This document shows positions 31,258-32,024 of a stretch of 32,024 nt of DNA, in pieces. How positions within the stretch are numbered: position 1 is the first letter of the stretch; the number at the start of each line of letters is the position of its first letter. Where the stretch lies: assembly GCA_947459405.1 (NCBI GenBank), contig CANHDQ010000005.1, positions 1-32,024 on the forward strand. Direction: 5' to 3'. The position numbers and the translations under genes are program-made. This DNA comes from Comamonadaceae bacterium. Lineage in GTDB: Bacteria; Pseudomonadota; Gammaproteobacteria; Burkholderiales; Burkholderiaceae_C. The notes beneath the pieces were generated by a model. It was not told the origin of the DNA. It saw only the letters and a program-made list of their open reading frames with translations, and ran no database searches.

Positions 31258-31512
31258 ATGTCTGACCACGACTTGCCACCCCTGATCGAAACCCCGCCCG
31301 GCCTGTACCTGCACTACAAGGGCCTGCCCTACCAGGTGCTGGGGACGGTGCGACACAGCGAGACGCTGGAGCCCATGACGCTGTACCGCGCGCTCTACGG
31401 TCAGCGCGGCCTGTGGGTGCGGCCGGCAGCGATGTTTCTGGAAGAAGTCGAGGTGAACGGGGCGCGCCAGCCGCGTTTCAAGTGGCAGGGGCCGGCCGAG
31501 GCCTCGCTTTAG
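31258..31512 (+). CDS. DUF1653 domain protein
   Basis: ATG 31258 MSDHDLPPLIETPPGLYLHYKGLPYQVLGTVRHSETLEPMTLYRALYGQRGLWVRPAAMFLEEVEVNG. Confidence 0.9.
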   Translation: MSDHDLPPLIETPPGLYLHYKGLPYQVLGTVRHSETLEPMTLYRALYGQRGLWVRPAAMFLEEVEVNGARQPRFKWQGPAEASL

Positions 31513-31545
31513 CAGGGCATTGAAGTTCCGCCCAACCCTGAACGC

Positions 31546-31648
31546 GAGCTTTGGGCGGCGGCACTGCGCTCCGCGAATGTCCCCCGGCCCGGCTGGCGCC
31601 GGTCCTCCTCCTTTATTTCGCTGCGCACAGCGCCACCGCCCAAAGCTC
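31546..31648 (-). repeat. Hairpin element, copy C (inverted orientation)
   Basis: Arms GAGCTTTGGGCGG (31546-31558) / CCGCCCAAAGCTC (31636-31648); minus-strand core GCAGCGAAATAAAGGAGGAG...CGGGGGACATTCGCGGAGC shared with copies A and B. Confidence 0.85.
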
Positions 31649-31709
31649 TAAGACGGCCGAGCTAAACACCGACCTCGGCCCCGCCCCCAAGATCCACACC
31701 ACCCCACAT

Positions 31710-31814
31710 GGCCGCTGGGCTGGGCTGCCTGGCGCAGCGAAATAAAGGAGGAGAGGTGGCCGCCAGGCCAACTCGGGGGACATTCGCGGAGCCAGGCAGC
31801 CCAGCCCAGCGGCC
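31710..31814 (+). repeat. Hairpin element, copy A
   Basis: Perfect 24-bp inverted arms GGCCGCTGGGCTGGGCTGCCTGGC (31710-31733) / GCCAGGCAGCCCAGCCCAGCGGCC (31791-31814); core GCAGCGAAATAAAGGAGGAG...CGGGGGACATTCGCGGA. Confidence 0.92.
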
Positions 31815-32024
31815 TCACCGCAGCTCAGGAATGCCAAGTCACGAGCTCGCCACACAGCCCACCACCCAAACACCCATAGCACCCCGCCTGGCCACTGGCC
31901 TGGGTTGCCTGGCGAAGCGAAATAAAGGAGGAGAGGTGGCCGCCAGGCCAACTCGGGGGACATTCGCGGAGCCAGGCAGCCCAGCCCAGCGGCCTCACCG
32001 CAGCTCAGGAATGCCAAGTCACGA
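31741..32024 (+). repeat. 180-bp-period direct repeat reaching the window edge
   Basis: 31741-31844 is identical to 31921-32024 (104 bp, exact); upstream parts of the unit are similar but diverged. Confidence 0.95.
31890..31994 (+). repeat. Hairpin element, copy B
   Basis: Same right arm (31971-31994) and core; left arm 31890-31913 differs from copy A at 3 positions. Confidence 0.92.

Follow-up and report, generated by a model that had tools for sequence, protein, structure and literature searches.

Three hairpins that close the window (the whole stretch of 32,024 nucleotides analysed here, from a Comamonadaceae bacterium) belong to a widespread repeat which is best explained, with moderate confidence, as a non-autonomous palindromic mobile element of the REPIN or MITE kind, acting as folded single-stranded DNA and exchanging its hairpin tips between copies. 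A sequence-only reading had proposed a structured RNA, a folded single-stranded DNA or a non-autonomous palindromic mobile element. The evidence favours the folded DNA element, because the repeat forms a mirror-image paired unit with defined ends, is present or absent at orthologous sites and carries DNA-type loops on one strand only. The earlier observation is real but understated, as the following results show.

The three elements described in that reading, sharing a core in both orientations, were all found (Table 1), and they were the only matches of the covariance model in the window. The three cannot be counted as independent: C (minus strand) and A (plus strand) constitute one usual mirror-image pair, located 32 bp after the stop codon of a DUF1653 gene, while B is a local tandem duplicate which repeats A and its flank until the contig end truncates it, in agreement with the near-duplication reported before. 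All of them contain the common core GCGAAATAAAGGAGGAG-[inner hairpin]-CGGGGGACATTCGC. Copy A (31710-31814) folds with a 24-bp perfect outer stem around a GCA/GGA internal loop, then a GCGAA/TTCGC stem, an internal loop that is large and asymmetric, and finally the tip TGGCC-GCCA-GGCCA, and none of 200 shuffled sequences folded as well; the three helices pointed out from the letters were all recovered in this fold. Read on the minus strand, copy C adopts the shape of A with arms of unrelated sequence, as had also been claimed. At the orthologous place in a related metagenome-assembled genome (L069, 4954-5715), five hairpins are found in the order - + - + +, compared with three here, so that the length of the array is variable at this locus, which probably broke the contig assembly at the end of the window.

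Table 1. Coordinates of the hairpin copies, their conserved parts and the neighbouring gene in the window.
Feature	Position	Strand	Evidence
Hairpin C, left half of the mirror-image pair	31545-31649	-	cmsearch 97.2 bits, E 1.1e-21; fold z -8.0
Spacer separating C and A	31650-31708	.	sequence; length typical for the element family
Hairpin A, right half of this pair	31709-31815	+	cmsearch 104.7 bits, E 1.5e-23; MFE fold z -10.1
Hairpin copy B, tandem near-duplicate of A	31889-31995	+	cmsearch 89.4 bits; 180-bp period repeat, 93% identity
Left core GCGAAATAAAGGAGGAG	A 31737-31753; B 31917-31933; C 31605-31621	A +; C minus strand	exact pattern; kept in unselected partner copies
Inner hairpin, GCCA loop, cGNNAg class (A)	A 31754-31773; B 31934-31953; C 31587-31604	A +	pattern, fold, loop classes
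Right core CGGGGGACATTCGC	A 31774-31787; B 31954-31967; C 31573-31586	A +	exact pattern; kept in unselected partner copies
Tandem duplication, 180-bp period	31685-32024	+	repeat units 31685-31844 and 31865-32024; contig ends inside
DUF1653 gene (context, outside the element)	31258-31512	+	PF07866, E 1.6e-26

On its GGAG strand the hairpin is built in tiers: the outer stem is long, the middle one measures 5 bp, and above them an internal loop, purine-rich and conserved (ATAAAGGAGGA opposite GGGGGACA), leads to a tip hairpin. For the covariation analysis and the covariance model, 49 copies were picked from a set in which arm identity stayed below 75%. Among these divergent copies 34 of the 38 base pairs had changed on both sides, which bears out the suggestion of selection on structure. 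In fact, the covariation score was 0.732, against 0.185±0.010 for shuffled alignments, lying above all 500 shuffles and every slid register, and 92.7% of the cells were paired, compared with at most 40.3% when the register was slid. The short middle stem covaries too (GCGAC/GTCGC, GCGGC/GCCGC). Moreover, the conservation of the core is no artefact of core-based searching, since partner copies adjoining an exact copy, which had not been selected for the core, kept it exactly in 95 of 144 cases and with five or fewer mismatches in its 31 nt in 134. The exposed loop of every copy (for instance window positions 31743-31752) also holds the Shine-Dalgarno-like string AAAGGAGG, which the DNA reading leaves unexplained.

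Hundreds of copies exist beyond the three seen at first. In the genome of the window the exact core pattern has 9 occurrences and its reverse none, and the covariance model recovers 14 copies there. Among GTDB species genomes the exact core marks at least 120 loci, the matches listed being mostly from Variovorax, Hydrogenophaga, Rhodoferax, Ramlibacter and Pseudorhodoferax, and the number of exact copies per genome ranges from 0 to 88, the latter in one Variovorax genome (G287). With the covariance model, matches were obtained in 179 of 401 genomes of the same bacterial family (about 45% of the sampled species) and in 79 of 141 genera; five other genomes of the genus itself gave no match to the model. 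In evenly drawn samples of the class and phylum, matches were confined to this family and to one other of the same class, whose copies replace the GCA/GGA loop by continuous pairing and keep the purine-rich loop and GGGGGACA. The comparison with Rfam that had been called for gave no family match in the window at gathering or permissive thresholds, and only weak, chance-level ones in relatives. The core strings do not occur in the relevant papers of the literature searched, and a survey of GTAG/CGTC palindromes makes no mention of the Comamonadaceae genera searched for. This would make it a large and apparently undescribed repeat family, widespread among the species of one major bacterial family. 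A phage or viral origin was rejected, with no exact match among 2.9 million viral contigs or in phage records; matches on plasmids were limited to three Variovorax megaplasmids.

The copies are arranged in a characteristic way. Close pairs stand in mirror image, a minus copy followed by a plus copy, in 88 of 92 cases, with cores about 105 bp apart, and unpaired single copies occur as well. In Variovorax the unit measures about 300 bp, is bounded by the inverted ends GTTCrGGGCGCG...CGCGCCyGAAC and has two members with different arm types; around the copies of the window such terminal inverted ends are not clear. Variovorax units from unrelated loci align over their whole length, conservation falling from 0.7-1.0 within the unit to about 0.45 immediately beyond the left GTTC and the right GAAC. 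Placement is intergenic, typically tens of bases past a stop codon: by heuristic gene calls, 21 of 80 units have convergent neighbours and 7 have divergent ones, and only 2 pairs fall inside a called ORF. A long insert between hairpins was found in a single case (L142:1693-6674, G216:C46), where 4.8 kb separate a left hairpin from a right one. This stretch contains a Sel1-repeat gene and four ORFs lacking a Pfam match, and no transposase was identified among the five ORFs scanned. The pieces adjoining the hairpins resemble the normal spacer, which suggests that a unit either received this DNA as an insertion or carried it along.

Individual sites are not permanent. At one gene junction compared among Variovorax genomes, G287, G320 and G340 carry the unit, G304 and G311 have it in a half-decayed state, G341 retains only remnants of its ends, and G331, G342 and G330 lack it. 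At a second junction it is carried by G287 and G304, while G357 has a short intergenic region cleanly without it, and in G341 a deletion (L212) fuses the outer halves of the left and right hairpins, creating another palindrome of the kind that slippage of the replication machinery between folded hairpins would be expected to leave. Decayed remnants and the hairpin-fusing deletion can be followed at L155 and L212. The sites therefore turn over between species, although presence and absence alone cannot separate gain from loss. No target-site duplication was seen by eye at filled and empty sites, where the intergenic flanks are too diverged for base-exact ends.

The acting strand can be read from the imperfect pairs. 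In the outer stem, all copies together show 561 G.T pairs against 61 A.C mismatches on the GGAG strand, and 97 against 18 in the 49 divergent copies once two fixed wobble columns are left out (binomial p 3e-14 for the asymmetry, the cells not being independent); it is therefore on the GGAG strand that folding is required. In addition, cGNAg or cGNNAg tip loops are found on this strand in 30 of the 49 divergent copies and on the opposite strand in none. On G-C stems, GNA and GNNA loops give DNA mini-hairpins of extraordinary stability, among them GCGAAGC (Tm near 78 C; PMC4686876); GCGAAGC itself is present as a tip, and the argument from loop stability rests on this literature, the DNA parameter set used scoring all triloops alike. 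Wobble pairs and loops together favour a GGAG strand folded as single-stranded DNA over RNA, although RNA tolerates G.T-type pairs too and cGNA loops are not forbidden there. A structured RNA would be produced by transcription from the neighbouring gene, the GGAG hairpin acting in the 3' region of the mRNA through stability, termination or the binding of ribosomes or proteins via AAAGGAGG. The wobble asymmetry, being of the G.U type, the Shine-Dalgarno-like string of the core, the position just past genes and the strong RNA folding would all fit. Nevertheless, we regard this as unlikely, since the tetraloops are mostly of the GCCA type, with GNRA loops in only 2 of 110 distinct tips, Rfam holds no match, a mirror-image pair transcribed from either side would yield one good and one poor hairpin, and related species lose sites, which decay.

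The tips change in a way that the arms do not follow. In 30 of 40 orthologous copy pairs in Variovorax, several of which share a locus and are thus not all independent, the inner hairpin differs, and in 25 it differs en bloc, by length or by at least three substitutions, the outer arms of these orthologous pairs being 90.5% identical. Identical tips are found in only 25% of orthologous pairs, not far from the 17% at unrelated loci of different species, and at one locus four species carry four different tips (L016, L024, L077, L234). Most simply, this would reflect ectopic gene conversion of short tracts across the identical core, possibly triggered when the folded tip is cleaved. The exchange of tips at fixed sites may leave, in living genomes, a legible trace of recombination events at hairpins.

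As for the mobilising enzyme, two candidates were rejected. The RAYT transposase (Y1_Tnp) does not track the element as its driver: it was detected in 24 of 28 carriers and in 19 of 23 non-carriers tested, carrier status being assigned by the covariance model, and it is absent from the carriers G012, G021, G233 and G270. An IS91-type enzyme was discarded on the grounds that Y2_Tnp is absent from G287, the genome with 88 exact copies. Furthermore, no parental IS or autonomous version with the same ends was found, L142 being the sole long-insert case. Some sequences around transposase genes were also recorded. The only Y1_Tnp gene of the window's own genome (L010, G000:C85) is flanked by AATTGGGGTCAGACCCCAATT-type palindromes, and strings related to AATTGGGGTCAGACCCCAATT directly adjoin some hairpin copies (L006, L185). 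The conserved 3' flank of the Y1_Tnp gene in relatives (L131, L133, L134, L137, L141), such as ATGTGTCCCCTTATTAAT, gives AATAAGGGGACACAT when its opposite strand is read, which resembles the hairpin core minus its tip (AAATAAAGG...GGGGACAT).

A true REPIN, that is, a REP doublet moved by the RAYT of the host, would account for the inverted doublets with spacer, the singlets, the intergenic placement and the compensatory changes (PMC3116915), and for the AATAAGGGGACACAT-like strings of the RAYT flank in relatives. However, no core copy lies in the roughly 1.5 kb surrounding 12 Y1_Tnp genes, of which one belongs to the window's own genome and the remaining 11 to carrier genomes, the presence of the gene is unassociated with the element, and the hairpin measures about 100 nt instead of 20-40, which leaves this explanation with little probability. 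Even less probable is a host DNA site (a roadblock, a nucleoid or repair site, or a bidirectional terminator) kept by host selection and spread by recombination and not by transposition: placement past genes, the symmetrical unit and broad presence in one family would suit it, but the exact-core copy number is highly uneven, five relatives of the same genus have no model match, individual sites are not maintained and whole units are homologous at unrelated loci.

The single-stranded DNA element could then work as follows. The normal unit is two large hairpins in mirror image, closed by the short inverted ends GTTCrGGGCGCG, and its GGAG-carrying DNA strand would fold into the hairpin. An enzyme supplied in trans would most likely recognise the conserved loop on this single strand and move or copy the unit into the space just past genes, arms and tip being free to vary while pairing holds. 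Tip exchange would probably arise when the folded hairpin is cut or stalls at the tip and a second copy serves as the template for its repair, through gene conversion across the identical core on either side. A bolder version is possible, though we advance it only tentatively: a family-wide element of single-stranded DNA hairpins, with a mover that is neither RAYT nor IS91-type, in which the tips may be exchangeable cassettes; at fixed sites, other mini-hairpins of the DNA type would recurrently take their place en bloc, since the fold itself would provoke cleavage and ectopic gene conversion. The family would provide strong natural evidence for a precise single-strand DNA fold as a target of selection. 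Moreover, the mobilising enzyme becomes a concrete target, and since some carriers have no Y1 transposase at all, something else can apparently keep doublets of the REPIN type moving.

Among known systems, REPINs combine inverted doublets with spacer, singlets, intergenic location, a conserved strand with compensatory changes and patchy copy number (PMC3116915). The present element shares with REPINs and REP-BIMEs these doublets, singlets, intergenic positions, compensatory stem changes and uneven copy number, and works like a REPIN or a MITE. It differs in its unit, a three-tier hairpin of about 100 nt with a 31-nt core, a swappable tip and the inverted ends; it has not been filed as a REPIN because the association with RAYT, a defining feature of that class, was tested and was not found, carriers without Y1_Tnp existing. 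Bacterial MITEs and small interspersed repeats such as Correia, ERIC, RUP and BOX are likewise small, non-coding, intergenic and numerous, with inverted ends, whereas the element has two internal hairpins with a conserved single-strand core, spans 79 genera with full turnover of its arms, and neither a target duplication nor a parental IS was seen for it. Finally, strand-specific hairpins are a trait of the HUH ends of IS200/IS605 (Y1) and IS91 (Y2), the latter having GTTC/GAAC at its end; in contrast to these, the element has no transposase gene between its hairpins, and Y2_Tnp is missing from the genome where its copies are most abundant.
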